Below are positions 2,286 to 34,948 of a stretch of DNA of 35,283 bases, one piece after another. Positions within the stretch are counted from its first letter, which is position 1. Each line of letters starts with the position of its first letter. The stretch spans positions 1 to 35,283 of IMG/VR virus record IMGVR_UViG_3300043172_000907. One strand, 5' to 3'. The translations under genes and the position numbers were made by a program. The notes beneath the pieces are model-generated. The model searched no databases and was not told the origin of the DNA. It saw only the letters and a program-made list of their open reading frames with translations. Source of the stretch: a virus.

Positions 2286-3491
2286 ATGGAATTCAATGAC
2301 TATACCACCTACGAATTCGTCTGGCGGAACAATGGGCAAATGCTAGAAGGCAAAGACAGGGTGGAAATGAAAGACGCCATCAGTGTGCCCAACGCCGCGA
2401 TGTTCCTCCCTAAGGTGGTATCTAATATAGTGAAAGAGGCAGCCGAGCCGCTGTTAGTAGGAACTTCCCTGCTACAGAGGATCGAGTATCATGCTGGTCA
2501 AACGATTACGTTTCCAGCTGTCGGCGCCTTAGTCGCTGCAGATATCGCTGAAGGTCAGGAATATCCAGAGCGTCAGCTCCAGATGGGCGGTGCTACTGTG
2601 ACAGCAACTATCGGGAAATCCGGTGTTGCAGTTAAGGTTACAGATGAGATGATTAAGTACTCACAGTACGACGTCATCGGAATGCACTTGCGCGCTGCAG
2701 GTCGAGCGCTTGCTCGTCACAAAGAGCAAAAGATATTCAACTACATCAATAGTATGGGTGTAGTTTGCTTTGACAATATTACTCCCGCCAATTCTCTGTT
2801 TGGTGTGACACACGGTCGAGGCCTCGACGGCTCAGCTAATGGCTCCGTGGTCATGGACGACATCTTTGATGCGTTCGGACAGATTATTGCACAGGGCTGG
2901 ATGCCAGATACACTTCTGATGCATCCCTTGACATGGATCATGTGGATTAAGGATCCTGTCTTGCGCGCTTTCGCGTTAGCTGCTGGCGGTGGAACCTTCT
3001 TCGCTTCATGGAAGGGTAATCCCGTTGGTCGCGCCCCGTGGGACAACTCAGGACAGGGTGGTCTTGGTTATGCTCCAGGTCAGAGTATTGACCCGAGTAG
3101 TGATCCATTGACTGCTTATAGCCAGAATATTAATTCTGCGCCTGTGCTGCCGAGTTATTTTCCGATTCCTTTCCGGATCATCGTGTCTCCGTTTGTGCCT
3201 TATAACCCAGTTACTAAGGTTACAGACATCATGATCTTTGACTCAGCCAATCTTGGTGCCCTTATCGTTGATGAGGAAGCTATGACGGAAGAGTTTGATG
3301 ATCCTGCACGTGATATCCGAAAGATCAAGATTCGGGAAAGATATGCAATTGCGATCCTTAATGAAGGTCAAGCAATTGGTGTGCTCAAGAACGTCTACGT
3401 GAGACCGAACCAGGTTGTTCTGCCCGCCAGAACCACTCTGGATATCGCTGGTAGCGTAGCTGAAATCCCGCCAACAACTCCGATCAGCTAG
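2286..3491 (+). CDS. Major capsid protein, HK97-fold
   Basis: This 401-residue protein forms the icosahedral shell. The pattern is typical of HK97-fold capsid proteins: an N-terminal arm of about 60 residues, then an E-loop-like beta region (GQTITFPAVG, AEGQEYPERQL), a GGATVTATIGKSGVAVKVTD strand segment, and a long spine-like helix (IGMHLRAAGRALARHKEQKI) at about residues 140-160. The peripheral domain and C-terminal strands follow (IDDPARDIRKIKIRERYAIA-type end with AILNEG). A strong TTAGGAGGATCC ribosome site precedes the ATG. The length matches the family. A stable hairpin follows directly, which fits a very highly expressed gene. Confidence 0.85.
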   Translation: MEFNDYTTYEFVWRNNGQMLEGKDRVEMKDAISVPNAAMFLPKVVSNIVKEAAEPLLVGTSLLQRIEYHAGQTITFPAVGALVAADIAEGQEYPERQLQMGGATVTATIGKSGVAVKVTDEMIKYSQYDVIGMHLRAAGRALARHKEQKIFNYINSMGVVCFDNITPANSLFGVTHGRGLDGSANGSVVMDDIFDAFGQIIAQGWMPDTLLMHPLTWIMWIKDPVLRAFALAAGGGTFFASWKGNPVGRAPWDNSGQGGLGYAPGQSIDPSSDPLTAYSQNINSAPVLPSYFPIPFRIIVSPFVPYNPVTKVTDIMIFDSANLGALIVDEEAMTEEFDDPARDIRKIKIRERYAIAILNEGQAIGVLKNVYVRPNQVVLPARTTLDIAGSVAEIPPTTPIS

Positions 3492-3513: not shown

Positions 3514-3540
3514 CAGCCCTAGCTGTTAAGGCTAGGGCTG
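3514..3540 (+). terminator. Strong hairpin after the major capsid gene
   Basis: A perfect 10-bp inverted repeat (CAGCCCTAGC / GCTAGGGCTG) with a 7-base loop TGTTAAG lies 23 bases after the capsid stop. No run of T follows (next bases TATCTAG). It could be a weak or factor-aided terminator, or a 3' mRNA-stabilising hairpin that sets the capsid transcript apart from the genes below. Confidence 0.7.
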
Positions 3541-3561: not shown

Positions 3562-3897
3562 ATGAGTGAGCCTCTAAGTAAGGACACATTCGAGACTTGG
3601 AACCGCGAGCACCAGAAATACTTGGACTCGAAATTTGATAAACTTGCTGGATGCGTAACTGGTGTGAAGAATAGCGTCGATGAAGTGAAGATTGCCCGCG
3701 AGAAGGCATGGCACACCCATGCTCAAGAGTCTGTTACATCTAAGAAAGAACAACAAGTCAAGTTCAGGAAGGTGTATAAGTACATTCTTATAGGATGTGC
3801 TGTTGCAGCACTTCTAGGCGGTGTCCTTGCTCCAGTAATCGGAATCGATGTTATAGTTGGCGTTGCAAAAGCCTTCTTTATGTTTAGTTCCGTGTAG
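3562..3897 (+). CDS. Small membrane protein with a C-terminal hydrophobic region
   Basis: This protein has 111 residues when started at ATG 3562; a TTG at 3553 would add three residues and is less likely. The first ~70 residues are hydrophilic and helix-prone, with many Lys, Glu and Gln. Residues ~73-110 are strongly hydrophobic (YILIGCAVAALLGGVLAPVIGIDVIVG, split here by its own Gly/Pro residues) and could form one long or two short membrane spans. There is no signal peptide. It lies between the capsid gene and the poly-Thr protein. Holin or another envelope-acting protein is possible, but no lysin gene is adjacent, so I leave the function open. Confidence 0.6.
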   Translation: MSEPLSKDTFETWNREHQKYLDSKFDKLAGCVTGVKNSVDEVKIAREKAWHTHAQESVTSKKEQQVKFRKVYKYILIGCAVAALLGGVLAPVIGIDVIVGVAKAFFMFSSV

Positions 3898-3920: not shown

Positions 3921-4220
3921 ATGGCATTAGATTTTAGTAAGAAATATCTCCACGACCAGCTTGTGCTCATGGATGGTTTGAGCGACGAACCAGATTGGAG
4001 TAAAGCGAGGTTGCGAGCACGCTTGATTGCTCAGGGAGCAACAGCGAGTGATGATTGGTCAATGAGCCATATGATCCTTGTTCAACTCCCAGAAGCTCAG
4101 GCATTCTTTGCTATTACTACAACTACGACCACAACAACAACTACAGCTCCAGTTGTACCGACTACTTCAACCACAACTACTACGACTACAACAACGACTA
4201 CAACAACGACGACCCCATAG
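3921..4220 (+). CDS. Small head/neck-module protein with a poly-threonine tail
   Basis: This 99-residue protein has two parts. Residues 1-65 form a short, folded-looking helical domain (DFSKKYLHDQLVLMDGLSDE, then WSKARLRARLIAQG). Residues 66-98 are almost only threonine: ten Thr, the spacer APVVP, Thr-Thr-Ser, fifteen Thr and a final Pro. The Thr codons are a mix of ACA, ACT, ACG and ACC, so the amino acid rather than a DNA repeat seems conserved. Such a tail is extended, and in other systems it resembles a mucin-type O-glycosylated stalk. The upstream CAGGGAG is a fair ribosome site. No family is recognised; a virion surface role is inferred from the neighbourhood. Confidence 0.7.
   Translation: MALDFSKKYLHDQLVLMDGLSDEPDWSKARLRARLIAQGATASDDWSMSHMILVQLPEAQAFFAITTTTTTTTTTAPVVPTTSTTTTTTTTTTTTTTTP
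4116..4214 (+). repeat. ACN-codon tract coding poly-Thr (27 Thr in 33 codons)
   Basis: Ten Thr codons, a GCTCCAGTTGTACCG spacer (Ala-Pro-Val-Val-Pro), Thr-Thr-Ser, then fifteen Thr codons. The third base varies through all four nucleotides, so this is a degenerate trinucleotide array and not a perfect microsatellite. It is the longest of three such tracts within 1.6 kb. Confidence 0.95.
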
Positions 4221-4234
4221 AATTGAGGTGTTAG

Positions 4235-4510
4235 ATGTCCTTGGATCTAGATAATTCTCACTTGAACAAGTTTAAAGCACTTGAAGTGAAAGTTGGAGAG
4301 TTTAGATCTTTTGAAACTGCTGTAAAGAAGTTCAGAAAGATCGTGGAGAAAGAAGGTACAATCAAGCATGTGCTTGAGCGTCGTTCTTTTATGAAGCCTT
4401 CTGCAAAAAGGCATCGAAAGAAAAGATTGGCGAAACGTCGCAGAGAATTACAGCGAGAAGAAGAAGCGCAGGAAGATCTAAAGAGGCGCAGAAAATCTCG
4501 CAGATGGTAG
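4235..4510 (+). CDS. rpsU: Phage-encoded ribosomal protein bS21
   Basis: This 91-residue, very basic protein matches the bacterial small-subunit protein S21 over residues ~17-70. It has the opening V-x-x-x-E-x-F beta strand, the F-x-x-A-V-K-K-F-R-K helix, the EKEGTIKHVLERR turn and helix, the F-x-KPS-x-K-x-x-RK motif, and an Arg/Lys-rich C-terminal helix. In cells S21 sits near the 3' end of 16S rRNA by the anti-SD region and helps initiation. Cellular S21 is usually 57-71 residues, so the ~16-residue N-terminal lead and the acidic-then-basic tail (REEEAQEDLKRRRKSRRW) are extra. GAGGTG forms a strong ribosome site. S21 genes are known in some large phages; the position inside a head/neck module is notable. 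Confidence 0.88.
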   Translation: MSLDLDNSHLNKFKALEVKVGEFRSFETAVKKFRKIVEKEGTIKHVLERRSFMKPSAKRHRKKRLAKRRRELQREEEAQEDLKRRRKSRRW

Positions 4511-4523
4511 AAAGGAACATATT

Positions 4524-5030
4524 ATGTTCATTAAATTGACACCAAGAGCTGCTTTTTGGTCATTAGTTGATCCTATCTCCAGAAAACTGATTGTGCATCT
4601 TACCTTTCAGCAACCTGGTCCGGTCAAGGTGAACTTTGATAAGCTTAACAAGCATTGCAAACAGATTCTTAACGCAGGTCTCGAGTATGGAAACATCATG
4701 CAGACTAAAGATCCTGTTGCAAAAGAAAAGACACCAAAACCTGATCCTGTAGTTGAAGAGAAGAAAAAGAAGGGAGAAGAGGATCGTCGTGTTGAAGATC
4801 AAGTAATTAATGTTGAAAGCTTTCTGAAACAAGGCGTACGCGGTATACGAGATCAGCTTCGTGACAATACCTATGGAAGTGATGATTTAACTCGTGCTAT
4901 TGAGTTGGAAAAAGCTGGTAAAGGCCGTAAGACTGTTCTTTCATCTCTTGAGCAGAAGCTCAATAAGGTTGGAGGTGCAGGAATTGTTACAGCTGAAGAC
5001 GAAGAGCAGATTGAAATACAATTAGCGTAA
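4524..5030 (+). CDS. Hypothetical head/neck-module protein with a charged linker
   Basis: This 168-residue protein has three parts. Residues 1-60 look beta/alpha mixed (MFIKLTPRAAFWSLVDP, then SRKLIVHLTFQQPGPVKV). Residues ~65-90 are a Lys/Glu/Pro-rich linker. The C-terminal part is helical, with a pattern ELEKAGKGRKTVLSSLEQKL near residues 128-147 that is common in small phage structural proteins. It follows bS21 by 13 bases and shares the same transcription direction and spacing as the neck genes. I do not recognise a named family; it may be a minor head or neck protein. Confidence 0.5.
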   Translation: MFIKLTPRAAFWSLVDPISRKLIVHLTFQQPGPVKVNFDKLNKHCKQILNAGLEYGNIMQTKDPVAKEKTPKPDPVVEEKKKKGEEDRRVEDQVINVESFLKQGVRGIRDQLRDNTYGSDDLTRAIELEKAGKGRKTVLSSLEQKLNKVGGAGIVTAEDEEQIEIQLA

Positions 5031-5390: not shown

Positions 5391-5588
5391 ATGCCAAGGC
5401 TAAGACCAAGACAAGTTAAGCTTGATGGTGCTACGCCTGTTAGTGTCTCCGACCTGAAGGATGGGGAAGTTAGACTGACAACTAGTGGAATGTATGCTAG
5501 AGTAGGCGACCAGGTGCTGTTCGAGAGTTGGGATGCCGTTTACCTGACCACTTCAACAACGACTACAACGACTACTACTGTTCCGTAG
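5391..5588 (+). CDS. Short fibre-like protein with a poly-Thr C-terminus
   Basis: This 65-residue protein starts after a strong AAGGAGAC site. Residues ~20-45 (DLKDGEVRLTTSGMYARVGD) resemble the short G-E-(I/V)-x-(L/V)-x-T-x-x-G repeat found near the start of many tail and head fibre proteins. It ends in TTS, eight Thr, Val-Pro and stop. It is too short to be a full fibre. It may be an adaptor or a trimeric base, or the broken first half of a gene whose second half begins at 5603 with an almost identical Thr tract in another frame. Confidence 0.55.
   Translation: MPRLRPRQVKLDGATPVSVSDLKDGEVRLTTSGMYARVGDQVLFESWDAVYLTTSTTTTTTTTVP
5547..5579 (+). repeat. Poly-Thr codon tract at the end of the fibre-like gene
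   Basis: The codons read Thr-Thr-Ser followed by eight Thr, all ACN with a varied third base, then GTT CCG and TAG. Confidence 0.9.
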
Positions 5589-5602: not shown

Positions 5603-6982
5603 ATGGCTTCTACAACGACTACTACCACAACGACCGCTCCACCTTTTGCTATTATTGGAGTAAGTCCTAATGACGGTGCAGTGGGTGTAGCTCAAGGGGT
5701 TCCGATAGAGGTTGACTTTAATAAGCCAATCGATACCGATACCTTTAATATAGTAGTAGCTTTGAGAACCTATCGAATCTATAATCATGAAACAGTTGCC
5801 TCCGGCGAGATCGTAGAAGGTGCAGTTACCTTTCCACTTGAGTATAACGATGAAAAGGCTGTATTTATATCGGCTTTACCATTCCTAGAAAATGCTGACT
5901 ATGATATTGTTCTGGATGATGGTATAACAACTGCAGGAGGTGAAGAATCAATAGATACACTCTACGGATGGTCTTTTCAGACCGGTATCGTAGATGAAGC
6001 TCCAGACGATCCATCGGATCCACAAATAGCACCACCCCTGAAAGACTTTCCAGAATCATTGGAAGGTATATCAGTGGTGTCTACATACCCTGCGCAGTAC
6101 ACTGCGCAGGTGCCGATAGATCTAGTCCCTAATGGTGGGGCTATTACTATATTCATGAATAAAGATATTCTCACGTACCAGTCTAATATCTCTTATTTTC
6201 CGATAAATGGAGATGATAGTCTTGTTACCCCAGTATATGATTTTGATCATGATGCTACAGTAGATACAGATGACAAGACTAAACTGGTACTAACTCCAAC
6301 AGCTAGTTTTCCAGAGAATGCATTAGTGGTAGTAACATTGGCTGATATCACAGCTACTGATGATACTATCATGCGAACGTACACATTAAACTTTGCCACT
6401 ACCATATCACCTGCTTATGCTACAGTGGCACAGGTTAAAGTACAGCTTGGTCCATTTGCAGATAATACAACAGACATTGCGATTGCTATGTTGATCCAAG
6501 AGTACTCAACAGAAGCAGATCTGATAGTACCAACTCTTGTTGGTAATGTTGCATTAGTAGCGTTGGCTAGAAAGAAATGGGTTATTTGTAGCGTTGTATA
6601 CGACCTGCTCTTTGCCAATATAATGGATAGCCAAGGTAAGAGTAAGAGACTTGCCGATATGGAAGTTTCTTATGAAGGTGTATCTCCAAGAGAGAAAGAA
6701 GCATTTTTCGACAAGATGAAAGATTGTGTGGAAAAATGGGAGGAGATATTACTATCTGGTGGACAAGGAGTCCGACCAGTGATGACGATTAAAGGCCTTT
6801 ACGATCCTGATCGACCAGATGTCGGAAGAGGCTGGACTAAAAGGCCCGATGCTGGACCTTCAGCCAATACGGTAGTTCAAAAGGTAGTAGGTCGGCGCGG
6901 TGTTAAGGCTTCAAGAGATCCACGACTCTACTATGCAAAAAATCGACAGGTAATTTACCGCACTAGCAGGGAATGGGATTAG
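5603..6982 (+). CDS. Ig-like (Big_5-type) domains fused to a head-tail connector-like domain
   Basis: Residues 1-13 of this 459-residue protein are MAS, eight Thr and AP. Residues ~14-128 and ~155-266 look like two bacterial Ig-like domains of the SbsA/Big_5 type: VSPNDGAVGVAQGVPIEVDF and KPIDTDTF in the first, and VSTYPAQYTAQVPIDL, then MNKDI and TPTASFPENALVVVTL, in the second. Residues ~271-390 are mostly helical (ATVAQVKVQLGPFADNTTDI, then KKWVICSVVYDLLFANIMDS), as in gp6-type head-tail adaptors. The C-terminus is basic. Position before the terminator and sheath genes supports a neck role. A connector carrying Ig domains at its N-terminus would display them at the portal vertex. The connector call is by pattern and place, the Ig call is firmer. 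Confidence 0.65.
   Translation: MASTTTTTTTTAPPFAIIGVSPNDGAVGVAQGVPIEVDFNKPIDTDTFNIVVALRTYRIYNHETVASGEIVEGAVTFPLEYNDEKAVFISALPFLENADYDIVLDDGITTAGGEESIDTLYGWSFQTGIVDEAPDDPSDPQIAPPLKDFPESLEGISVVSTYPAQYTAQVPIDLVPNGGAITIFMNKDILTYQSNISYFPINGDDSLVTPVYDFDHDATVDTDDKTKLVLTPTASFPENALVVVTLADITATDDTIMRTYTLNFATTISPAYATVAQVKVQLGPFADNTTDIAIAMLIQEYSTEADLIVPTLVGNVALVALARKKWVICSVVYDLLFANIMDSQGKSKRLADMEVSYEGVSPREKEAFFDKMKDCVEKWEEILLSGGQGVRPVMTIKGLYDPDRPDVGRGWTKRPDAGPSANTVVQKVVGRRGVKASRDPRLYYAKNRQVIYRTSREWD
5612..5635 (+). repeat. Poly-Thr codon tract at the start of the Ig/connector gene
   Basis: Eight Thr codons follow Met-Ala-Ser and lead into Ala-Pro-Pro. The peptide S-T8-A-P mirrors the S-T8-V-P that ends the gene before it. 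Confidence 0.9.
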
Positions 6983-6992
6983 AAGGTAAAGG

Positions 6993-7682
6993 ATGACAGC
7001 AATAACTCAAGAACTTGAATCCGTTAGACTAATGCTGCAAGAGATTCACAGAGCCCCTTCCAATAGGCTCCGCAGTCCCTTTCCTGCAGTTGACATTGAT
7101 GGATTCTATCTCTTAGTTGAAGAGGCTATGAGAGCATATCAGCTTGCCGAAGGTAGAGCCGAAGATAGGCTGATTATATTCTCAGAAGAATATCCTCCAC
7201 AAAACTATGAGCATGAGATGGTTACAGCAAGACTTATAGATCGTGGTCCTGCTGTAATGAGTAAGTCAGCTCCTCAAGGTTCGCCTCGAGAGCTAAAACC
7301 TACCGTAAGGGAGGTTTACGATGATCCTGTTTTACCTCGCTACCAGATATGGGAACTTGGATGGATGCGAGATAATATCATCGAGTTTTGCATATGGAGT
7401 CAAACAAACAAAGAAGCTAATAAAATTGCTCTCTGGTTTGAAGACTTCATGAATAACAATATGTGGTTTTTCAGATCTAGAGGAGTCAATCAACTGTATT
7501 TTAATGGTAGAGATAATGACTTCGTTATTCTAGAGAAAAGACTGGTTGGAAGGCCCTTAACGTATTTCGTGCGTACTGAGAAAATAACTCAGTTACGAGA
7601 AAAGGTCCTTGAAGAAATGGTAGTTAATATTCTTGTGACTACAGATCTCGAAGCCGAATTGAGTGATGTAACACATGGTTAA
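6993..7682 (+). CDS. Tail terminator/neck-like protein
   Basis: This 229-residue soluble protein comes between the connector and the sheath, the usual place for a tail completion (terminator) protein that caps the tube and joins it to the head. The C-terminal half has the mixed alpha/beta pattern of this group: WELGWMRDNIIEFCIWSQTN, then NKIALWFEDFMNNNMWFF, then RLVGRPLTYFVRTEKI. The first ~60 residues form a helix-rich lead. The start follows AGAAGGTAAAGG, a good ribosome site. No signature residue decides the family, so the name rests on pattern and order. Confidence 0.55.
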   Translation: MTAITQELESVRLMLQEIHRAPSNRLRSPFPAVDIDGFYLLVEEAMRAYQLAEGRAEDRLIIFSEEYPPQNYEHEMVTARLIDRGPAVMSKSAPQGSPRELKPTVREVYDDPVLPRYQIWELGWMRDNIIEFCIWSQTNKEANKIALWFEDFMNNNMWFFRSRGVNQLYFNGRDNDFVILEKRLVGRPLTYFVRTEKITQLREKVLEEMVVNILVTTDLEAELSDVTHG

Positions 7683-7728: not shown

Positions 7729-9939
7729 ATGGCAGATTTTCCAAATCTTCCGGGTACTTATGTTGACTTAACGGACGGCAATCTTCAGATCGTTGAAGTT
7801 AATGTTGCTCCTGTAGTCGCAGTACTTGGTACTGCTGCACAAGGCACTGCGGATGCACTGTATCCAGTTGTTCGACCGGCTGATGCCTCGAACGCTTTTG
7901 GTTCCAGTGGTACGTTGATCCGCGGCATGTATGAAGTCCGCTCTGGTGGAAGCCAGCAGGCGGTTCTTATGCGCATTGGTGCAAAATCCGCCAAGTTGCT
8001 GCATGTCGGTGATGATGCTGGTGCTCTCGGTATCACCATTGAGACATTTGAGAAAGACGATGAAGCCGGAGAAGACTTGTATATCTGGTGGTCCCAGGTC
8101 GAAGAGCGTCTCGTTGTGACAGATGAGGATGACTCAGTTGTTTACGAGCAGCTCAAGGCAGAGGTTCTAACTGATTTAGGTGCATGCTTTACCAGCGGTT
8201 CTGCTGAAGCAGCAGGTACTGATATTGGTACAGAAAGTGTCCCGATCAGAATGGATCTAGTGGCAGTTACCGGATCAAGATTTATAGGCGGTACCGATGG
8301 TGTAGATGGTACAGCTATGGATCTTTATGAAGCCCTCCACAAGGCGTATGCTAGTCTGGAAGCCTCTCAGCTTGATATAGTTGTGCCCATGGATGTTTAT
8401 CATGACACTCCTAATATCGCTGATGATTCCGCTATTGCCGTAGATTACGGCATGCCAGATGAAATCGCTCTGGGAGCAGAAACTACTCTTGATTTAGACC
8501 ATCAAAGAGTGAACCCTGAATCATTGTTAGTCATGAAAGATGACGCAGGAAATGGCATCTTTGCAGCATATGACTATATTTTTAATCGTGGTGCTGGTAC
8601 AAATGATGTTGATCAGCTTGAGTTCCTCGTTGCCCTATCAACAGATGATGTTGTTAAGGTTACTTATAACTATCTGACAACTGACGGCTTGCTTTACTTC
8701 CGCACTTGGGAAGAAAGTGGTGAAACCATGTTTCAGTGGTATCACGAGAAGTACTACTACGATGCTGATAATGACGTAACGATGGAAATGCATGAAGCGA
8801 ATTTTGCGTGGCAACTCGCAGAGTTCTGTTATAACTTAACAAAGAATGACAACGATGCTATTGGTGTGATTGGTGTGCGTCCTTTCCGGAGTACAGCTCT
8901 GAAGGATCTCGCTAATTGGGCTGGCTACTTACCTACATACGATGCGAATGGTGCTGTGACCGCTAATGGTGACGGCCTTGCTGGTAATAGGTGGATGGCT
9001 GGTAAACTGATGGATGTTTGGAGCTACGCAGAGGAAGATGATGATGAATTAACAGTTACAGCTACCGACACCTTTGACCTCGCCCATGGCGATGCTGGAG
9101 ACGTGGCTGTTGTGGCCGGTTCTGTGAAATGTACTGTAGATAGTGTAGTGGTTACAGAGTTCACTATTAGTCACGGAACAGGTACACTTAATGTTGATCA
9201 GATCATCTTCGAAGAAGCTCTTAGTGGTGGTGAAGATATTGTATGTACCTACCGGTACTCTACAGGTGTACTCACTTCCCAGAGAGGTCCTGGCTTCAAT
9301 GCAACAACAGATGATACGTATGCCGATGGTACTCCGTTGAGTCCAAACGTTGATATTGGTCGTTATATCTCAGTGATCATGGCTTGGCCGATTCTATTTA
9401 CTCCAGTTGACGCTACGGGCTTTGGTTACATTGCTACAGGAGCGCCTACCTACGGAGGCTTCGTGTCTCAGTTGGCACCCGCGTCTGCACCTACTAACAA
9501 GGTGATACCGGGTATTTCTTCTGCGTTCCGTTTAAGCAAGAGTAGAATGGACGATCTAGTCAGTGTGCATTACGTCGTGTTCACTCCACGTGAGCGCGGT
9601 ACAGTTTGTGTGGATGCTCCGACAGCAGCTGGTCTCAATTCTGATTACCAAAGACTGACTACTGTTCGTATCGTAGCTGAAACGATCAAGAGGCTGAGAG
9701 AGGTGCTGAATCCATTCTTGGGTGAAGGCATTACGACTCCACAACTGAACGCAATGCAGACTACCACAGACCGTGTGCTTACAGACCTGATTAAAGACGG
9801 CCTCCTTCAGCGAGCCGAAGCAAGTGTTTCAGCATCCGCTGTAGAAAAAGTACAGGGTAAGGCAAACCTCGATCTGCTCCTAGTTCCAGCATTTGAGCTG
9901 CGACAGATCTATATGACAGTAAGCCTGAGTGCTATCTAA
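7729..9939 (+). CDS. Contractile tail sheath protein
   Basis: This 736-residue protein polymerises around the tube and contracts on infection. The N-terminus (FPNLPGTYVDLTDGN, then VAPVVAVLGTAAQG) and the C-terminal domain at ~600-736 (RGTVCVDAPTAAG, TTVRIVAETIKRLREVLNPF, LGEGITTPQLNAM, FELRQIYMTVSLSA) are the conserved sheath parts. Two beta domains are inserted, at ~245-318 and ~436-512, each ending in a T-Y-x-Y motif (VTYNYLTTDG, CTYRYSTG). They probably lie on the outer surface and explain the length beyond a typical sheath of about 400-660 residues. AAGGGAGAT is the ribosome site. The gene places the phage among myoviruses. Confidence 0.9.
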   Translation: MADFPNLPGTYVDLTDGNLQIVEVNVAPVVAVLGTAAQGTADALYPVVRPADASNAFGSSGTLIRGMYEVRSGGSQQAVLMRIGAKSAKLLHVGDDAGALGITIETFEKDDEAGEDLYIWWSQVEERLVVTDEDDSVVYEQLKAEVLTDLGACFTSGSAEAAGTDIGTESVPIRMDLVAVTGSRFIGGTDGVDGTAMDLYEALHKAYASLEASQLDIVVPMDVYHDTPNIADDSAIAVDYGMPDEIALGAETTLDLDHQRVNPESLLVMKDDAGNGIFAAYDYIFNRGAGTNDVDQLEFLVALSTDDVVKVTYNYLTTDGLLYFRTWEESGETMFQWYHEKYYYDADNDVTMEMHEANFAWQLAEFCYNLTKNDNDAIGVIGVRPFRSTALKDLANWAGYLPTYDANGAVTANGDGLAGNRWMAGKLMDVWSYAEEDDDELTVTATDTFDLAHGDAGDVAVVAGSVKCTVDSVVVTEFTISHGTGTLNVDQIIFEEALSGGEDIVCTYRYSTGVLTSQRGPGFNATTDDTYADGTPLSPNVDIGRYISVIMAWPILFTPVDATGFGYIATGAPTYGGFVSQLAPASAPTNKVIPGISSAFRLSKSRMDDLVSVHYVVFTPRERGTVCVDAPTAAGLNSDYQRLTTVRIVAETIKRLREVLNPFLGEGITTPQLNAMQTTTDRVLTDLIKDGLLQRAEASVSASAVEKVQGKANLDLLLVPAFELRQIYMTVSLSAI

Positions 9940-9953
9940 GGAGGAACCGATAA

Positions 9954-10601
9954 ATGGCAGAGAGAACCATAAGCCAAACTTCCGGAACTTATCACTCATT
10001 TAGTGGTGTTGATATTAGAGCAGTCTTTGGTGAAAAGATCATTGGAGAGTTACAAGCTATCTCCTACATGATCACACGAGAGAAGGCTCCTATATATACG
10101 ATGGGTTCCCCTGATCCACGTGCCTTTAATAGAGGCAAGCGTGGTATCGCCGGTTCTCTGATTTTCATCGTATTCGATCGTGCTGCTTTGTTAGAGACTA
10201 TGGGTACTGAATCCCGGAAATACTTGGCTGATAAAGATGAGCCTAAGATTAACCGGAACCTTGAGTTCTTCTCAACATCCACATATCAGTCACTGAATGT
10301 GGAAGACCCGCAAAATCCTAATACTCCGACTGGATTGCAGGCCGAGAGCCAGAGGTTAAGTGATCAGCATGAAGCCAGACAGGCCATGTATGTTGATCAG
10401 ATTCCGCCCTTTGATGTGACTCTAACAGCCGCCAACGAGTACGGTCAGCTTGCGGTCATGAGAATCCTCGGTGTAGAGATCCTGAATGAGGGTTCTGGTG
10501 TTTCGATCGATGATATCGTGACAGAACAAAATATGACCTATGTCGCACGGGCAGTTATACCATGGCGCCCGGCAGGCAATATGCTAACTGGCGAACGATA
10601 A
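9954..10601 (+). CDS. Tail tube protein
   Basis: This 215-residue protein directly follows the sheath gene after GGAGG, as tube genes do. It would stack as hexamers to form the inner tube. It shows a tube-type pattern: FSGVDIRAVFGEKIIGELQA, ISYMITREKAPIYTMG, RGKRGIAGSLIFIVFDR, QIPPFDVTLTAANEYGQ and ILGVEILNEGSGVSIDDIVT. An intrinsic terminator follows the stop. Two further proteins below share parts of this pattern; this one, closest to the sheath and most compact, is the best candidate for the main tube subunit. Confidence 0.8.
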   Translation: MAERTISQTSGTYHSFSGVDIRAVFGEKIIGELQAISYMITREKAPIYTMGSPDPRAFNRGKRGIAGSLIFIVFDRAALLETMGTESRKYLADKDEPKINRNLEFFSTSTYQSLNVEDPQNPNTPTGLQAESQRLSDQHEARQAMYVDQIPPFDVTLTAANEYGQLAVMRILGVEILNEGSGVSIDDIVTEQNMTYVARAVIPWRPAGNMLTGER

Positions 10602-10631
10602 GAGAACCTCAAAATAAACCCGCCTATCAAG

Positions 10632-10669
10632 GGGAGGAGAGGCTTACTCCTCTCTTCCCTTTTCTTTTT
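10632..10669 (+). terminator. Intrinsic terminator after the tail tube gene
   Basis: An 11-bp stem GGGAGGAGAGG / CCTCTCTTCCC (one G-T wobble) with loop CTTACT is followed by TTTTCTTTTT. This is a textbook rho-independent terminator. It would lower transcription of the second tube-like gene relative to the sheath and main tube. Confidence 0.85.
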
Positions 10670-10695
10670 CCTATCCTACCTAGGGGTGCATACCT

Positions 10696-11463
10696 ATGGT
10701 CTCTGAAAATGTAAGCAATCATAGAGGTATAAGACAAATAGATCCAGTTGCTCGGCAAGAGGATTGGCTTATCCAACAGGGATATGTCAAGCCAGCTGAT
10801 CCGGATAAGGTATCGCCTGATGCAGACGAAGTGGTAAAGTATACCTCTTTCTCTGGGTGTGATATCAGAGCAATAGTAAGTTTCTTTGATACTAATGCAG
10901 AGCAAGGTAAGGAGTCTAGGACAGAGATACTAGGTGACGTACAAACTATTACTTATTCCACTCATAGGGAGAAATTTCCTGTTCGTACTTTAGGACGTAC
11001 TAGCGTAAAGGGTTATACTCGTGGTCCTCGTACAATTGGTGGGACTATGATATTCACTGTTTTCAATAAAGAAGTACTCAGTGCAATGCTTGTACAAAAC
11101 TATCAGCTTGATGCAGCAGATAAAGATAATTATGGTGTATGGGCAGCAGTACTGATTGATCAGATTCCGCCTTTTGACATTACTATCTCTTTTGTTAATG
11201 AGTATGGAGCTATATCAAAATTGGTTCTTTTCGGTGTTGAGCTTGTTAATGAAGGCCAGACGATGAGTATCGATGATCTTATTACAGAGAATGTGGTCAA
11301 CTTTGTAGCTAGACATATCGAACCGATGATTGATATGAGAGGAGATGGCCCATCAAATTGGGAAGATGTTATTCAAGGTGAGGCAGATTTTGCTCGGCTA
11401 GCACAAGATGTAAGGGTTAGACGTTTACTTGCAGCCATGGAAGCACCTGGAGATGAAGGTTAA
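10696..11463 (+). CDS. Tail tube-like paralogue
   Basis: This 255-residue protein repeats the tube pattern of the gene at 9954: FSGCDIRAIVSFFDTNA, DVQTITYSTHREKFPVRTLG, RGPRTIGGTMIFTVFNK, IDQIPPFDITISFVNEYGA and LFGVELVNEGQTMSIDDLIT. It adds a ~50-residue polar N-terminal lead and a C-terminal tail rich in charged residues. Its place after the terminator suggests lower expression. It may form a minor tube ring, for example at the baseplate end (tube initiator) or the tail tip. That assignment is inference; the paralogy is clear by eye. Confidence 0.75.
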   Translation: MVSENVSNHRGIRQIDPVARQEDWLIQQGYVKPADPDKVSPDADEVVKYTSFSGCDIRAIVSFFDTNAEQGKESRTEILGDVQTITYSTHREKFPVRTLGRTSVKGYTRGPRTIGGTMIFTVFNKEVLSAMLVQNYQLDAADKDNYGVWAAVLIDQIPPFDITISFVNEYGAISKLVLFGVELVNEGQTMSIDDLITENVVNFVARHIEPMIDMRGDGPSNWEDVIQGEADFARLAQDVRVRRLLAAMEAPGDEG

Positions 11464-12167
11464 TGGTCGGTATAATTGGAAAAGGACCTGCAGGGTCTGA
11501 AGGATCTTTTATTTGGCCAGTAGCACAAGAAGATATAGAAAATGTAGACTTCTATCAAGAGCTGTATGGCCGAAGAGTTTATAGGTATGACGCTGTAAGC
11601 GGTGCTCAAATCTCTGTATACTTTGGTACCAGTACTCTTATAGATGATGCTACAGCTATTCAGTTTGCTCTTACTCAATCAAAGAAACCTATTTTTGGTT
11701 ATCATTCTCAGTATTTTGATACCGTTGCACCGGGTGTAGTAATAGTGCATGGCAGATTATTTGTCAATTTTATACATCAAGGATATTTGCGTTTGCTTAT
11801 GAAGCATGCTGATGATCCAAATTTCTTGGATAGATTCGAGACTAATGCTACTAGAGCACAAAGGAATACTAAGTCTGGTTTTGCTGATTTTGATGGTGTA
11901 CCCAGTAGCCAAGAAGCATTAGTGAGATATATTAAAAAAGAAGCTCATAAGAGACAGCAGGATGAGATAGCTGAAGGTGGTTTTGTTAGGCCAGATCTAC
12001 TTAGGAGTGTAGATATTAGAATCAAATATTCTGCTGAGTCTGAATTTGATAAGATACCGTTTAAGACTTTAAGCAGCGTTCACTTTATAGGTGAAAGTCA
12101 AGAGATACAAATTTCAGGGCAACCAGTTCAAGAGATGTATGAGTTTATTGCTAAGAAAGTAACCTAA
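11463..12167 (+). CDS. Tube-related baseplate/tail protein
   Basis: The start of this 234-residue protein overlaps the previous stop (TAATG). The core pattern (ISVYFGTSTLIDDATAIQFA, then KPIFGYHSQYFDTVAPGVVI, then VHGRLFVNFIHQGYLRLLM) has the same order of strands and loops as tube-type proteins: a turn like the tube's REKAPIYTMG, followed by a G-x-L-x-x-x-F strand. The C-terminal part (VDIRIKYSAESEFDKIPFKT, then IHFIGESQE-like strands) also fits. Similarity to the two tube genes is weaker. A tail tube initiator, connector or baseplate ring is likely. Confidence 0.55.
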   Translation: MVGIIGKGPAGSEGSFIWPVAQEDIENVDFYQELYGRRVYRYDAVSGAQISVYFGTSTLIDDATAIQFALTQSKKPIFGYHSQYFDTVAPGVVIVHGRLFVNFIHQGYLRLLMKHADDPNFLDRFETNATRAQRNTKSGFADFDGVPSSQEALVRYIKKEAHKRQQDEIAEGGFVRPDLLRSVDIRIKYSAESEFDKIPFKTLSSVHFIGESQEIQISGQPVQEMYEFIAKKVT

Positions 12168-29536: not shown

Positions 29537-30829
29537 ATGATAAAACCTGTAGTGGGGGTGTTTACCTCTTTTACCTATTATGCAGCTGGGTATTCACTTA
29601 CCAACCTGATTCGTAGTCAGATTCGTCAGCTCACCAGAGGTGGCTATCCGCCACATCTTATGGTGTGTGATAGCTTTAAAGAGGCAGATAAGTACTTTAA
29701 AGAATGCACGATGCATAAGGTTATTCCTACCGGTGCACTCGATGTACCATATGCTAAGCCTGCTATTGAGGCGAAGCATGAGAAGTTAGTTGAGGGTACA
29801 GTAGAGGCACTTAAGAAAATGATTGACGATCATGATCTCAATATGATCTTTACTCATGATATCATCTTCCTGAATACTCATTACCCATATGCGCTAGCGG
29901 TAGAGATGGTAGCTAAGGAAAGACCGAATGTTAAGTGGATGCATTGGGTCCATAGCTGTCCTTCTGGTCTTAATGCTATCTGGAATATCAAAAAGTATGG
30001 ACCTGGTCACAAGATTGTATTTCCCAATCGTACTGATGCTATGAGAGTGGCAGAACAGTTTCGCGGGGATATCGATCATGTTTGGCCGATCCACCATGTA
30101 AAGGATATTAGAGAGTTTGCTGAGTTCAGTGGTCCTACTTGTCAGTTTATAGATAAGTATGATCTAATGAATGCTGATATCGTTCAGATCTATCCTGCTT
30201 CAGTTGATCGTCTAAGTGCTAAGGGAGTTGACTTTCTTATCAAGACCTTTGGTGCAATGAAGAAGGTGTTTCGGCAATCAGTTAGACTGGTTATTGTTAA
30301 TCAGTGGTGCAACGTAGATCATCATCGTAAAACGGTTGAGGGGTATCTCGAGAAGGGCAAAGCTGCAGGCTTGAGGCCCGACAAGGATCTTGTGTTTACC
30401 TCTCGATTTGATGCTCCTAAGTGGGAGCTCGGTCTACCGGCTAAGATGGTAGCTGAATTGATGATGCTAGGTAACCTGTTCATGTTCCCTACACATCACG
30501 AGAGCTTTGGACTGGTGCTGCCAGAGGCATCCCTTATGGGTGGCGCTTTGATAGTGGCTAATTGCTCACTGGATATGATGAGAGAGATTACAGGTAATAA
30601 TGCGCTCTTCTGGGACTATGGCAGCTGGCACCGTGATATGCAGTTTCAGAAGCCAGGTGATCAGCCTGATATGTACTGGCGCCAGGTAGCCAAGATAATC
30701 TTAGGTAAGATGCAGCAAGAGTCTGCTCTTAAGATGAGGACTCATGTGCGTAAGACATTTAACATGGATGCCATATGGCGTAATGAGCTTGAGCCGGCCA
30801 TGCTAGCTCTGCTGAATGAGATGAACTAA
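29537..30829 (+). CDS. GT-B fold glycosyltransferase
   Basis: This 430-residue protein likely transfers a sugar from a nucleotide donor. The N-terminal Rossmann half begins VVGVFTSFTYYAAGYSL. The C-terminal donor half contains VDFLIKTFGAMKK, VRLVIVNQW and, decisively, HHESFGLVLPEASLMGG with the E-x7-E pair (E322, E330) found in GT4-type retaining enzymes. It has no signal or membrane segment, so it acts in the cytoplasm. AAAGGAG is a strong ribosome site. It is the first gene of a tightly coupled cassette behind a candidate promoter. Donor and acceptor are unknown; host LPS, teichoic acid, phage DNA or virion proteins are all possible. Confidence 0.85.
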   Translation: MIKPVVGVFTSFTYYAAGYSLTNLIRSQIRQLTRGGYPPHLMVCDSFKEADKYFKECTMHKVIPTGALDVPYAKPAIEAKHEKLVEGTVEALKKMIDDHDLNMIFTHDIIFLNTHYPYALAVEMVAKERPNVKWMHWVHSCPSGLNAIWNIKKYGPGHKIVFPNRTDAMRVAEQFRGDIDHVWPIHHVKDIREFAEFSGPTCQFIDKYDLMNADIVQIYPASVDRLSAKGVDFLIKTFGAMKKVFRQSVRLVIVNQWCNVDHHRKTVEGYLEKGKAAGLRPDKDLVFTSRFDAPKWELGLPAKMVAELMMLGNLFMFPTHHESFGLVLPEASLMGGALIVANCSLDMMREITGNNALFWDYGSWHRDMQFQKPGDQPDMYWRQVAKIILGKMQQESALKMRTHVRKTFNMDAIWRNELEPAMLALLNEMN

Positions 30830-31029
30830 TGGGATTAAAAGGATATCACTCGATGCAATGGCAGCCAATCGATTATTATTGTCCAGGCTGTGGACATCAT
30901 CCAGTGCACTGCCATGTGGTTCTAAGTCTAGCGGAAGATGAGCCGCGGTTTATGTGTATGGAGTGCAATTTGCCATTTAACCTGACTACGTTCAAGTACG
31001 AAACGGTAAGGACTATTGATGAGTCGTGA
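30829..31029 (+). CDS. Small zinc-ribbon protein
   Basis: The start of this 66-residue protein overlaps the previous stop (TAATG). C-P-G-C-G near residues 14-18 and C-M-E-C near 43-46 form a classic two-knuckle zinc ribbon, with extra His residues (GHHPVHCH) between them. It may assist one of the transferases or bind nucleic acid. It overlaps the next gene by 11 bases, so the three are probably translated together. Confidence 0.7.
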   Translation: MGLKGYHSMQWQPIDYYCPGCGHHPVHCHVVLSLAEDEPRFMCMECNLPFNLTTFKYETVRTIDES

Positions 31030-31867
31030 GTATGATTTCTCCCATTGGGATAAGCTACCCAAGATCTCGGGCTGTTGTATGACATTTGGCAGACCTGAGA
31101 TGTTAGGCGAGGCAGTTGAATGCTTTCTACGCCAAGATTATCCGGGTGAGACAGAACTAATCATTCTTAATGATCATCCAGAGATTCTTTTAGAGTGGCC
31201 AGATGCTCCGGAGAATGTGAAACTTATTAATCTGCCCGAGAGACTTCCTACGATAGGCGACAAGAGAAATATGTCTACGGATCTCTCTACTGGCGATATT
31301 GTTATGCAGTGGGATGATGATGATATTCATCTGCCCAATCGGTTCTCGATCATAGCTGAGAAGATGACTATGCGCCACTACTATAAGCCTAATATGTTCT
31401 GGTATTGGGGCGGTGGCAAGGTGCACTACAGACCCAAGAAGAATGTGGCCCATGCTATGAGTGGTTATAGTAGAGAGTTCTATGAGACCATGGGAGGATA
31501 TCTTCCTAAACAGTCAGGACAGGATATTCATTTTGAGATAGCTGCTAAGAAGGTATGGCTTGTAGATGATGAGCTCTACATGGCAGGTAGCTTACCCGAG
31601 GGCGGCCGGAAGAGGGGTGAAAAAGCTAGGCAATGTTATCCTATCTCCGATGAAGATCTTTACTACCTGTATCGATTTGGAGGTACGGGAAGCTATCATC
31701 TCTGTGTATGGGGCCCGGGCAAGGGATACGACGAATCAATGAACTGGGTTAATAAGCGTATTGCCCCAGGAACATATATTATTAAGCCTCACTGGAAGCT
31801 TGACTATGTAGCTTTAGTGCAAGAGAATATCGAGCAGTTTAAGGCGGAGCAAAATGAAACAGTATGA
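31019..31867 (+). CDS. GT-A fold, family 2-type glycosyltransferase
   Basis: This protein has 282 residues from the ATG at 31019; a TTG three bases earlier is in frame but TAAGGA is spaced better for the ATG. The pattern is GT-A: ISGCCMTFGRPEMLGEAVEC, FLRQDYPGETELIILNDHPE, then DKRNMSTDLSTGDIVMQWDD with the acidic metal motif DDDD at 99-102, then IHLPNRF. The later part has a SGYSREFYETMGGYLP acceptor-side segment and GQDIHFE, as in family-2 enzymes where a second Asp/Glu is the base. It acts in the cytoplasm. The substrate is unknown. Confidence 0.8.
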   Translation: MSREYDFSHWDKLPKISGCCMTFGRPEMLGEAVECFLRQDYPGETELIILNDHPEILLEWPDAPENVKLINLPERLPTIGDKRNMSTDLSTGDIVMQWDDDDIHLPNRFSIIAEKMTMRHYYKPNMFWYWGGGKVHYRPKKNVAHAMSGYSREFYETMGGYLPKQSGQDIHFEIAAKKVWLVDDELYMAGSLPEGGRKRGEKARQCYPISDEDLYYLYRFGGTGSYHLCVWGPGKGYDESMNWVNKRIAPGTYIIKPHWKLDYVALVQENIEQFKAEQNETV

Positions 31868-31982
31868 GATTATTAAGACTTCTTTTGCATCTGCTAATAG
31901 TATCGAGGAAGCTAGAGAAATAGCTGAGCTGCAGACAGACTATCAAATTCTTGAGATAAACGAGATCAAAGATGGGGCTTAA
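31854..31982 (+). CDS. 42-residue overlapping small protein
   Basis: This frame overlaps the end of the glycosyltransferase by 14 bases and the start of the next gene by 11. GGCGGAG lies four bases before the ATG, so it is probably translated. The peptide (MKQYEIIKTSFASANSIEEA, then REIAELQTDY and QILEINEIKDGA) is a helix-prone, acidic sequence with no Cys. It is too short to classify. It could be a small regulator or simply a coupling frame. Confidence 0.55.
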   Translation: MKQYEIIKTSFASANSIEEAREIAELQTDYQILEINEIKDGA

Positions 31983-32601
31983 TATAGCAACATTACAGTT
32001 TATCGAACAGCATGTAGATGTGTCTAGCAAGCGGATATGTATATATGGTAATCTTTACCTGAAGAGAGGTACTGATGAAATTCAGATAAAGCTAGGTAGT
32101 AAACTTGCTTCTACTTACTTTATGCATTGTGGTGCTTCTGAGATTACTATGCTAGATATTAATAAGAAAGATGGGGCATTACCAATAGATCTAGATAAAC
32201 CAATAGATAATATAGACTTATTAGAATCTTTCGATGTATTGATTGACGGTGGAACTTCAGAGCATGTAAAGAATCAGTATAGTTGTTTTTGGAATGCTTT
32301 TAATCTTTGTAAGCCTGGTGCTCTAATGCTTCATATGATTCCTGCGAAAGGTCATTGGATCAATCATGGTCGTTGGGGCTATCCTCTCCATTTCTTTAAA
32401 GAACTAGCTCGTTATAGTGGCTATACTATCATAGAGATGTATCAAGATAATTATGTAAGTAAATTGGTAGAAAAGAAACATGATCTTGTTTTTACCTGCC
32501 TTAAGAAAGAGTTACATTCTGTGTTTGTAAGCCAGAAGATCTTTGAGGAAAAGCTACTACCTATATTGGAAGTAAGAAGCAGATATGCTAAGAAGAAATA
32601 A
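31972..32601 (+). CDS. Class I methyltransferase-like protein with atypical SAM loop
   Basis: This 209-residue protein has later motifs of a Rossmann methyltransferase: ITMLDINKKDGALPIDL (motif II-like acidic strand end), FDVLIDGGTSEHV (motif IV-like) and CKPGALMLHMIPAKGHW, then a glycan/peptide-type GRWGYPLHFF. The usual glycine-rich motif I is not visible; the first strand reads RICIYGNLYLKRG. It may be a degenerate or divergent enzyme. It sits between sugar transferases and a sulfotransferase, so methylation of a sugar is a fair guess. The start overlaps the small upstream gene. Confidence 0.55.
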   Translation: MGLNIATLQFIEQHVDVSSKRICIYGNLYLKRGTDEIQIKLGSKLASTYFMHCGASEITMLDINKKDGALPIDLDKPIDNIDLLESFDVLIDGGTSEHVKNQYSCFWNAFNLCKPGALMLHMIPAKGHWINHGRWGYPLHFFKELARYSGYTIIEMYQDNYVSKLVEKKHDLVFTCLKKELHSVFVSQKIFEEKLLPILEVRSRYAKKK

Positions 32602-32604
32602 TAA

Positions 32605-33240
32605 ATGTCTGAGTTAATTATAGGCTTAGGTACAGGACGATGTGGCACCATGTCTCTGAAGGCATTGTTTCAGTGTCAGTCTCGTACCAGTGCTACACAT
32701 GAGACTATGCTTCTACCATATAAAGTTAATGAGAGGAAGCTTGACCAATATATGCAGAAACTACACCGTCGTTTTAATGGCGCAGATACTGTTGTCGATA
32801 TCGCGCTATGGAATTTGCCTTATGTGACTTCTATCCTTGCAAAGTATCATGACACTAAGTTTATATGCCTTAAGCGAGATAAAGAGCTAGTTGTCAAGAG
32901 CTTCGTAAGGAAGACTCCTAAGCGAAACCATTGGACGCGTTTCGATAGCGAGCATTGGGACGAGACTCAGTGGCCGAAAGAGAAGAAGTGTCCATACAAA
33001 GGATGCTATCCTAGATTTGATGTCGGTAAGGAAGAAGCAATAGGCTTGTATTGGGATTATTACGATGCAGTCTCAGCAACTTATGAGATATCGTTTCCGG
33101 ATAACTTCCGGATATTTCCGGTAGAAGATCTAAATACCCGAGATGGTTGCGAAAGTATACTAAGCTTTGCAGGCTATGAAGAAATGGTTGTCAAGGTTGG
33201 CATACACAAGAACGCTATTCTTAATAGAAAGAAGAAGTAA
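32605..33240 (+). CDS. Sulfotransferase (PAPS-dependent type)
   Basis: This 211-residue protein starts with IIGLGTGRCGTMSLKALF, the 5'-phosphosulfate-binding loop of sulfotransferases (the G-T-G-R-C-G-T-x-S-L form). A 3'-phosphate-binding segment, KFICLKRDKELVVKSF, lies at ~85-100 with the Arg and Ser expected for this motif. Helices and a C-terminal GIHKNA segment follow. The length is on the short side for the family (about 200-300). It would move sulfate from PAPS, supplied by the host, to a sugar or other hydroxyl. Sulfotransferases are rare in phages. The target is unknown. Confidence 0.8.
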   Translation: MSELIIGLGTGRCGTMSLKALFQCQSRTSATHETMLLPYKVNERKLDQYMQKLHRRFNGADTVVDIALWNLPYVTSILAKYHDTKFICLKRDKELVVKSFVRKTPKRNHWTRFDSEHWDETQWPKEKKCPYKGCYPRFDVGKEEAIGLYWDYYDAVSATYEISFPDNFRIFPVEDLNTRDGCESILSFAGYEEMVVKVGIHKNAILNRKKK

Positions 33241-34001
33241 TGCTAATACATTCCTATCTTACAGATGGTTTTTTTGACTTTGGACAAGCACTGTTGCTTT
33301 CCTTTAAGCAACACCATGGGGAAGAGATCCCATTCTTTCTAACTACTAGAAATCTTAGCGAGAAACAGATTGATCATTTGCATTTTCTATACGGCAATCT
33401 AATTGTCTCAAACGAACAGATTGATATGCAGGCTCTAAGTGAAAGAGCCGGCAGGAGTGTCGAGGAATTAAAGAAACTCAAGTGGCAGGTAGAGAAGGTC
33501 TTCGTCAAGCCAAAGAGTGTAGTTTGGAAGCAGTATGTATCTGTAGAAGATCGCTATAGGGATTCACTACAAGATGCTTTTAGTATTGCAGGTGATTGCT
33601 TCCTTCATCTAGACGTAGACAGTTTTATTCATCAATCTCTTGATCCTTTGTTTAGGATTATAGAAGCCAATGATGTTTCATTGGTTTTCAGGCCCACTAA
33701 AGCAGTTCAGTTTAAGATATTTGGCTGTGCAATGGGGTTTAAGGTCAACGTACAAGCAGATAGATTTCTAGAAACTTGGAGGAGACATATAGATGCTATA
33801 CCCTTGGCTAATAAACCTCGAGGTTATGGACAAACATCTTGCTGGAAGGCACATCTAGAACTAAAAGACTCAGATATTCAATGGGGCAGGATACCAAAGA
33901 ACTTTATACAGACTGGATTTAGGTCTAATGTACTCATAGTCCAGGGTAATAATGGATATAGAAAACAGAAGGTTGCTGCCAATTTCTTGAGGAGAGTGTA
34001 A
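33240..34001 (+). CDS. DxD glycosyltransferase-like protein, first tandem copy
   Basis: The start of this 253-residue protein overlaps the sulfotransferase stop (TAATG). It opens with MLIHSYLTDGFFDFGQALLL and has a DVD motif at 125-127 (CFLHLDVDSFI), with VSLVFRPTK and GCAMGFKVN after it, as in GT-A proteins with a metal-binding DxD. The end holds RGYGQTSCWKAHLE, perhaps the acceptor side. It is a clear paralogue of the next gene. I recognise no named family; a glycosyltransferase fits the pattern and the neighbours. Confidence 0.6.
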   Translation: MLIHSYLTDGFFDFGQALLLSFKQHHGEEIPFFLTTRNLSEKQIDHLHFLYGNLIVSNEQIDMQALSERAGRSVEELKKLKWQVEKVFVKPKSVVWKQYVSVEDRYRDSLQDAFSIAGDCFLHLDVDSFIHQSLDPLFRIIEANDVSLVFRPTKAVQFKIFGCAMGFKVNVQADRFLETWRRHIDAIPLANKPRGYGQTSCWKAHLELKDSDIQWGRIPKNFIQTGFRSNVLIVQGNNGYRKQKVAANFLRRV

Positions 34002-34948
34002 TGCTAGTCCACTCGTTTGCTACTGATGGCTATTATGACTTTGCAATAGGTATGTTGGTCTCTTTTAAGGCTTGTCATGGGGAAGATATACCTTTTCTGT
34101 TGCACACTATGGACTATACAGATGATATGATAAAGAGGCTGAAAGGGATATACAAGAATTTGACAGTTAAAAATAGCGAAACAGATTGGCAGTGGTTAAT
34201 AGATGTAAGCGGTATGAAGAAAGAGGCTTTATTAAAGGGGAAAAAGAAGGTAGAGAAGGAGGGCACCCGTTATGGTGCGCCAGCATTTGCCCACTGGAAG
34301 CATTACATATCCATTTATGAACGCTATAAAAGATCGTTACTTGAAGCTTTTGATTTTGTTGGTGAGGGGAACTCTTTTCTTCATCTAGATATTGATCTAT
34401 ATATTAATAGAAAATTAGATTCAGTCTTTAACTTAATTAATCTAGCTGATGTATCCCTACTTCTGCGACCAGGTGCTACACCCGAGTGGAGGAAAACGTA
34501 TGGATGTATTTTAGGGTTTACAGTTAACAAGAAGTCTAGAAAGTTTCTTAAGACTTATCATAGCGTTATTGATACAGAGGTATTTAAGTATATTCCCAAA
34601 GGGTGGGGACAAACTGCTTTATGGCGTGCATATGTAATACATAAAAAGTCTAGTATTAAGATTGCCCAGATACCACGAGGTTGGATTGATAAGGGTTTTA
34701 GAAAGAATGCACTTATCTTTTCTGCCAATATAGGACGGCCTAAGAAAGAAACTGCTTTGAGATATAAGGTAATGGCTCAAACGGGTCAAAAAGTCAGTAC
34801 TGAACAAGCAGCAAAGAAAGAGAAACCAATTCGGGTGCCAACAAGAAGAAAGGGTCTAGTAAGAGAAAGAGTAGTGAAGAAAAGAAATATCGGAAAAACC
34901 ACCTCCTTACGACAGATGATAGGAAAGAAAGGAAAAGTAATGAGATGA
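34001..34948 (+). CDS. DxD glycosyltransferase-like protein, second tandem copy with basic tail
   Basis: This 315-residue protein matches the gene before it in order and motif: MLVHSFATDGYYDFAIGMLV, then SFLHLDIDLYINRKLD with DID at 130-132, VSLLLRPGA, GCILGFTVN, and KGWGQTALWRAYV. The last ~55 residues are a very basic extra tail (RVPTRRKGLVRERVVKKRNI). The first copy lacks this. The tail could bind nucleic acid or an acidic surface. A GAGGAGAG site precedes the ATG, which overlaps the previous stop. Duplication then divergence is the simplest origin. Confidence 0.65.
   Translation: MLVHSFATDGYYDFAIGMLVSFKACHGEDIPFLLHTMDYTDDMIKRLKGIYKNLTVKNSETDWQWLIDVSGMKKEALLKGKKKVEKEGTRYGAPAFAHWKHYISIYERYKRSLLEAFDFVGEGNSFLHLDIDLYINRKLDSVFNLINLADVSLLLRPGATPEWRKTYGCILGFTVNKKSRKFLKTYHSVIDTEVFKYIPKGWGQTALWRAYVIHKKSSIKIAQIPRGWIDKGFRKNALIFSANIGRPKKETALRYKVMAQTGQKVSTEQAAKKEKPIRVPTRRKGLVRERVVKKRNIGKTTSLRQMIGKKGKVMR

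Follow-up and report, generated by a model that had tools for sequence, protein, structure and literature searches.

A predicted bS21 ribosomal protein gene in a putative clade-specific insert beside the capsid gene of a myovirus

Results

The window, by which we mean the entire 35,283 bases of the IMG/VR virus record analysed here, carries on its plus strand a major capsid protein gene at 2286-3491 (PF25209, 4.7e-18; phrog_3922, 6.5e-21), followed by a hairpin, three small genes and, further downstream, a tail sheath gene at 7729-9939 (phrog_16991, 1.7e-67) which marks the phage as a myovirus. The first small gene (3562-3897) encodes a protein with a C-terminal hydrophobic segment, homologues of which (29-62% identity) occupy the same place in six related IMG/VR records (L002 and L004-L008), and the second (3921-4220), with homologues in the same six records, encodes a protein with a poly-threonine C-terminus. 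The third, at 4235-4510, is the candidate bS21 gene, encoding 91 residues from an ATG start preceded by the Shine-Dalgarno (SD) sequence GAGGTG at 4225-4230 (anti-SD duplex energy -6.9 kcal/mol). It starts 14 bases past the preceding stop and ends 13 bases ahead of the next start, gaps which suggest that bS21 lies on one transcript with its neighbours. The gene that follows (4524-5030, plus strand) is conserved, with homologues detected by tblastn in L002-L006, L008, L019 and L022 and by inspection in L018 and L020, and thus occurs also in relatives lacking bS21; it has no Pfam or clear PHROG match. The original prediction that bS21 is encoded inside a head/neck module is borne out, as the gene is co-oriented with the capsid gene upstream and with a PHROG virion structural protein (6993-7682) and the sheath downstream. 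It is the third gene after the capsid gene and within ten genes of structural genes, likewise in the six relatives. Poly-threonine runs recur at protein ends in this region, C-terminally in the products of 3921-4220 and 5391-5588 and N-terminally in that of 5603-6982, and are kept in relatives; a structural-module protein of record L009 (7430-8080) begins with a Ser/Thr run.

Myovirus markers in the window comprise the capsid, an Ig-like protein, the PHROG virion structural protein, the sheath, tail tube-like proteins and baseplate J. By capsid, the nearest described phages are Bacillus phage vB_BauM_KLEB27-3 (38% identity), Moorella phage MTATph1 (35%) and Acinetobacter phage vB_AbaM_ME3 (31%), all with genomes of 177-235 kb. 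As the window also shares with KLEB27-3 and ME3 the order terminase, portal, capsid, small structural genes, sheath and tube, the record probably covers only part of a large myovirus genome. After the sheath, three adjacent proteins (9954-12167) match phrog_9206 to differing degrees and are likely tail tube paralogues, and past the baseplate genes (29537-34948) lie two glycosyltransferase-like genes, a possible methyltransferase, a sulfotransferase-like gene and two similar genes of no assigned function. Neither Rfam families nor tRNAs were found in the window.

The product of 4235-4510 is matched by S21 profiles well above their curated cut-offs. PF01165 aligns residues 17-70 of 91 with model positions 1-54 of 55 (E 3.5e-11, 43.1 bits against a cut-off of 27 bits), the equivalog TIGR00030 scores 44.7 bits (E 9e-12, cut-off 28.95 bits), PHROG 21469 'ribosomal protein S21' is also matched and phmmer finds approximately 30 bS21 chains in the PDB (best E 5.7e-6). 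An AF2 model built from nine phage rows contains helices at 26-40, 42-50 and 55-90 in the S21 order, with a mean pLDDT of 76, a modest pTM of 0.39 and low confidence at residues 1-5. The top four Foldseek matches of this model are each the bS21 chain of a 30S or mitochondrial 28S entry, although the scores are weak (best E 0.17; VIA Z 3.3-3.9). Thus, by profile and by the order of its predicted helices, the protein is a genuine bS21 which retains the core order of motifs originally proposed for it. Neither of the two outcomes named as refuting that identification, a missing S21 profile match or missing S21 helices, arose. That proposal also held that the protein carries extra segments at both ends, of which only the N-terminal one stands. 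An extension of 16 residues (1-16), kept in phage relatives, precedes the S21 domain (17-70), compared with 2-3 residues in cellular bS21, whereas the basic C-terminal tail (71-91) had been overstated, as its 21 residues compare with about 16 in E. coli. Relative to cellular bS21, the core domain, helix order and KPS motif are shared, and the window protein differs by the extra N-terminal segment, a somewhat longer basic tail and membership of a separate phage clade.

In the six relatives, whose capsids are 81-95% identical to that of the window, bS21 is found at the same place, in the same order and on the same strand, with 62-77% identity to the window protein; the bS21 of a further record, L003, is identical to that of L002, and the L007 contig stops before the 4524-type gene. 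This recurrence refutes the reading of the gene as bacterial DNA or a misassembly, which we regard as scarcely conceivable: nothing was found in its support, and no close cellular bS21 was detected in the genome collection at the sensitivity of the scan. pN/pS for bS21 is about 0.14-0.27, with the S21 core changing least; these ratios are rough, synonymous sites being near saturation in pairs with the window, and more reliance is placed on comparisons of L002, L004 and L005 with one another, which are closer (0.14-0.21). Synteny in the six relatives combined with these ratios argues that the protein is in use, and the pattern of substitution indicates that it is under purifying selection.

Comparison with more distant relatives suggests how the gene came to lie where it does. 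The stretch between the capsid gene and the 4524 gene measures 1,032 bases in the window and holds the 3562-3897 gene, the poly-threonine protein gene and bS21. In L018, L019, L020 and L022, which lack bS21 and whose capsids are 62-66% identical to that of the window, a 4524-type homologue lies within about 75-100 bases of the capsid gene; in L018 and L020 it was judged by eye from its N-terminal pattern and position, being below the tblastn cut-off. No PF01165 match over the cut-off occurs in these four records or anywhere in the KLEB27-3 and ME3 genomes, and for the four records, several of which are short fragments, absence is firm only at the capsid junction. Since the capsid gene nearly adjoins the 4524-type gene in the relatives lacking bS21, bS21 belongs to a three-gene insert specific to the window's clade. 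The most economical account is that this clade gained it, with loss in the relatives lacking it as the alternative.

Sister bS21s are encoded in L009 (about 1308-1517) and L010 (1186-1401), apparently another phage type than the window, just ahead of terminase- and portal-like genes. Their sequences bear on a non-ribosomal role, in which bS21, as a basic protein binding RNA or DNA, would be packaged with the head or would aid its assembly. The head-module location and a Lys/Arg content of 31 of 91 residues are in keeping with such a role; however, the most conserved part of the protein is the S21 domain rather than the tail, and the L009 and L010 proteins lack the long tail and occur in a different phage type. 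We consider this role very improbable.

Position within the structural module does not by itself establish expression in step with the capsid. The hairpin directly after the capsid gene (3514-3540, plus strand) has a 10-bp stem and a loop of 7 and is terminator- or 3'-end-like. It is very stable (z -5.5 against mononucleotide shuffles), and a strong post-capsid hairpin is found in nearly all of the 17 regions folded, with or without bS21. Its sequence differs in most relatives, with compensatory change at two stem positions (G-C/A-T and A-T/G-C), and that of L018 resembles an intrinsic terminator in carrying a T run, whereas that of the window lacks one. No sigma-70-like promoter was found on the plus strand of the insert. 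Because a conserved hairpin separates the capsid gene from the insert, bS21 expression equal to that of the capsid cannot be assumed, and the insert could be transcribed at a lower level than the capsid gene or independently of it. Production of bS21 late in infection, as originally predicted, is suggested by gene position only.

The original prediction had also proposed placing the protein in a tree against host phyla. Phage bS21s form one clade (support 99/96 without the very divergent L056, 100/99 in a smaller tree) which has no supported cellular sister among the five sampled phyla and four single reference sequences, and no host is indicated. The references comprise E. coli and B. subtilis, F. 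johnsoniae, whose sequence agrees letter by letter with PDB 7jil, and 9i5v, which is partial. Omnitrophota lie nearest to the phage clade, weakly, with few columns and long branches. Assigning a host from this tree was rejected given the missing sister, the few phyla and the long branches, as was a link to Bdellovibrionota, which do not group with the phages and whose presence in the hit list reflects the search patterns. tblastn of the window bS21 against known phages gave weak partial matches only.

Strong SDs, defined as anti-SD pairing of -4.4 kcal/mol or better, precede 75-81% of window starts compared with 19% of internal ATGs, in agreement with the original statement that most genes here have them; the count includes two wrong starts (3568 for the ATG at 3562, and 65, which lies in the last part of a longer gene), and dropping both only raises the fraction. 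It had further been proposed that bS21 favours phage mRNAs with strong SDs, for which no support was obtained: SD strength is equal in relatives lacking bS21 and in the outgroups KLEB27-3 and ME3 (63-100% of starts), so that the SD argument does not discriminate. A link between SD strength and the presence of bS21 was rejected as evidence. This equality in SD use would suit a like-for-like supply of bS21 for ribosome repair or assembly, leaving mRNA choice unchanged, as would retention of the S21 core. We nevertheless think such a top-up unlikely, as the lineage is divergent and, with an N-terminal extension and a tail of its own, has changed further than a plain copy would have to.

On the ribosome, bS21 is a neighbour of the anti-SD strand. 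Masking of that strand in F. johnsoniae is aided by Tyr54 of bS21, and translation of strong-SD reporters improves in a Y54A mutant (PMC9976891). The corresponding residue is Arg68 in the window, Arg in L002, L005, L006 and L008, Lys in E. coli, Tyr in L009 and His in L010. As Arg occupies this position in the window's clade, much as Lys does in E. coli, masking of the anti-SD by Arg68 would not be expected. A tie between an aromatic residue and the absence of SDs was not supported, L009 combining Tyr with strong SDs. It has been considered that the N-terminal extension and the missing anti-SD-stacking aromatic produce a specialised 30S which initiates differently and favours late phage mRNAs, a proposal we regard as doubtful.

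Discussion

bS21 is widespread in viruses, 1310 cultivated and uncultivated viral genomes or contigs encoding it (Mizuno et al. 2019, PMC6375957). The original prediction regarded a bS21 among capsid and neck genes as unusual, a view contradicted by Chen et al. 2022 (PMC9723584), who reported bS21 inside the structural module, highly expressed together with structural genes in lake phages, found structural genes within ten genes of bS21 in 388 of 900 bS21 phages and suggested that bS21 is packaged in the virion. The idea of a late, ribosome-capturing, perhaps packaged bS21 encoded in the structural module is therefore that of Chen et al. 2022, after Mizuno et al. 2019. In their clades a-e, from lake Bacteroidetes phages, bS21 likewise lies a few genes from capsid, protease, portal and terminase, a late role is proposed and bS21 is missing from phages related to them more distantly. 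Their hosts are Bacteroidetes. The present case differs in that bS21 is on the same strand as the structural genes in the window and its relatives, rather than on the reverse strand; in Arg, rather than an aromatic, at F. johnsoniae position 54; in strong SDs; and in a neighbour which is present also in relatives lacking bS21, whereas bS21_CN of Chen et al. is absent without bS21.

Pelagibacter phage HTVC008M is likewise a myovirus with a phage bS21 retaining the S21 core. Its bS21 is 54% identical to that of its host (PMC6375957), whereas no close cellular relative was found for the window protein, which differs also by its 16-residue N-terminal extension. HTVC008M bS21 enters E. coli 70S ribosomes, but these are about 5% active in vitro, possibly reflecting host mismatch according to the authors (PMC6375957); incorporation thus need not help translation. 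That low activity might point to a host shut-off, in which the phage protein would replace host bS21 and chiefly depress initiation on host mRNAs rather than select those of the phage, as might a phage-specific and conserved N-terminal extension. Considering that the activity may be a matter of mismatch and that the gene lies in the structural module, when bulk phage protein synthesis is needed, this appears improbable.

The explanation we favour, and hold to be reasonably probable, is that the gene encodes a phage bS21 paralogue, an accessory gene in a head-module insert, which enters the host 30S during the structural phase and keeps or tunes phage initiation. The protein would be made in that phase, a timing read from gene position, would take the exchangeable bS21 site on the host 30S platform, beside the anti-SD strand, and may sustain or adjust the initiation of phage mRNAs when host bS21 is in short supply. 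Both the S21 domain and the published E. coli experiment with HTVC008M bS21 suggest incorporation; a gain for phage translation would be a further step, and preference for phage mRNAs is a proposal taken over from the literature. The S21 profiles, synteny, pN/pS, the insert and the location of the L009 and L010 bS21s also beside structural genes speak for this explanation, whereas the hairpin, which may uncouple bS21 from capsid transcription, and the independence of SD strength from bS21 speak against it. From the original prediction it retains bS21 identity, structural-module location and co-orientation but neither the SD-selective mechanism nor the unusual location.

No earlier report of bS21 in the window's phage lineage was found in the literature consulted, and, relative to the portion of published phage bS21s surveyed, the additions made here are the lineage, the insertion site with its empty counterpart, the same-strand placement and the conserved N-terminal extension. 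A phage lineage distantly related to KLEB27-3 and ME3 thus joins the known bS21 carriers. Strong SDs occurring with or without bS21 provide no evidence for an SD-directed role, a caution in reading such genes, and one capsid-gene junction with and without the insert offers a clean comparison for the effect of bS21 on late translation.
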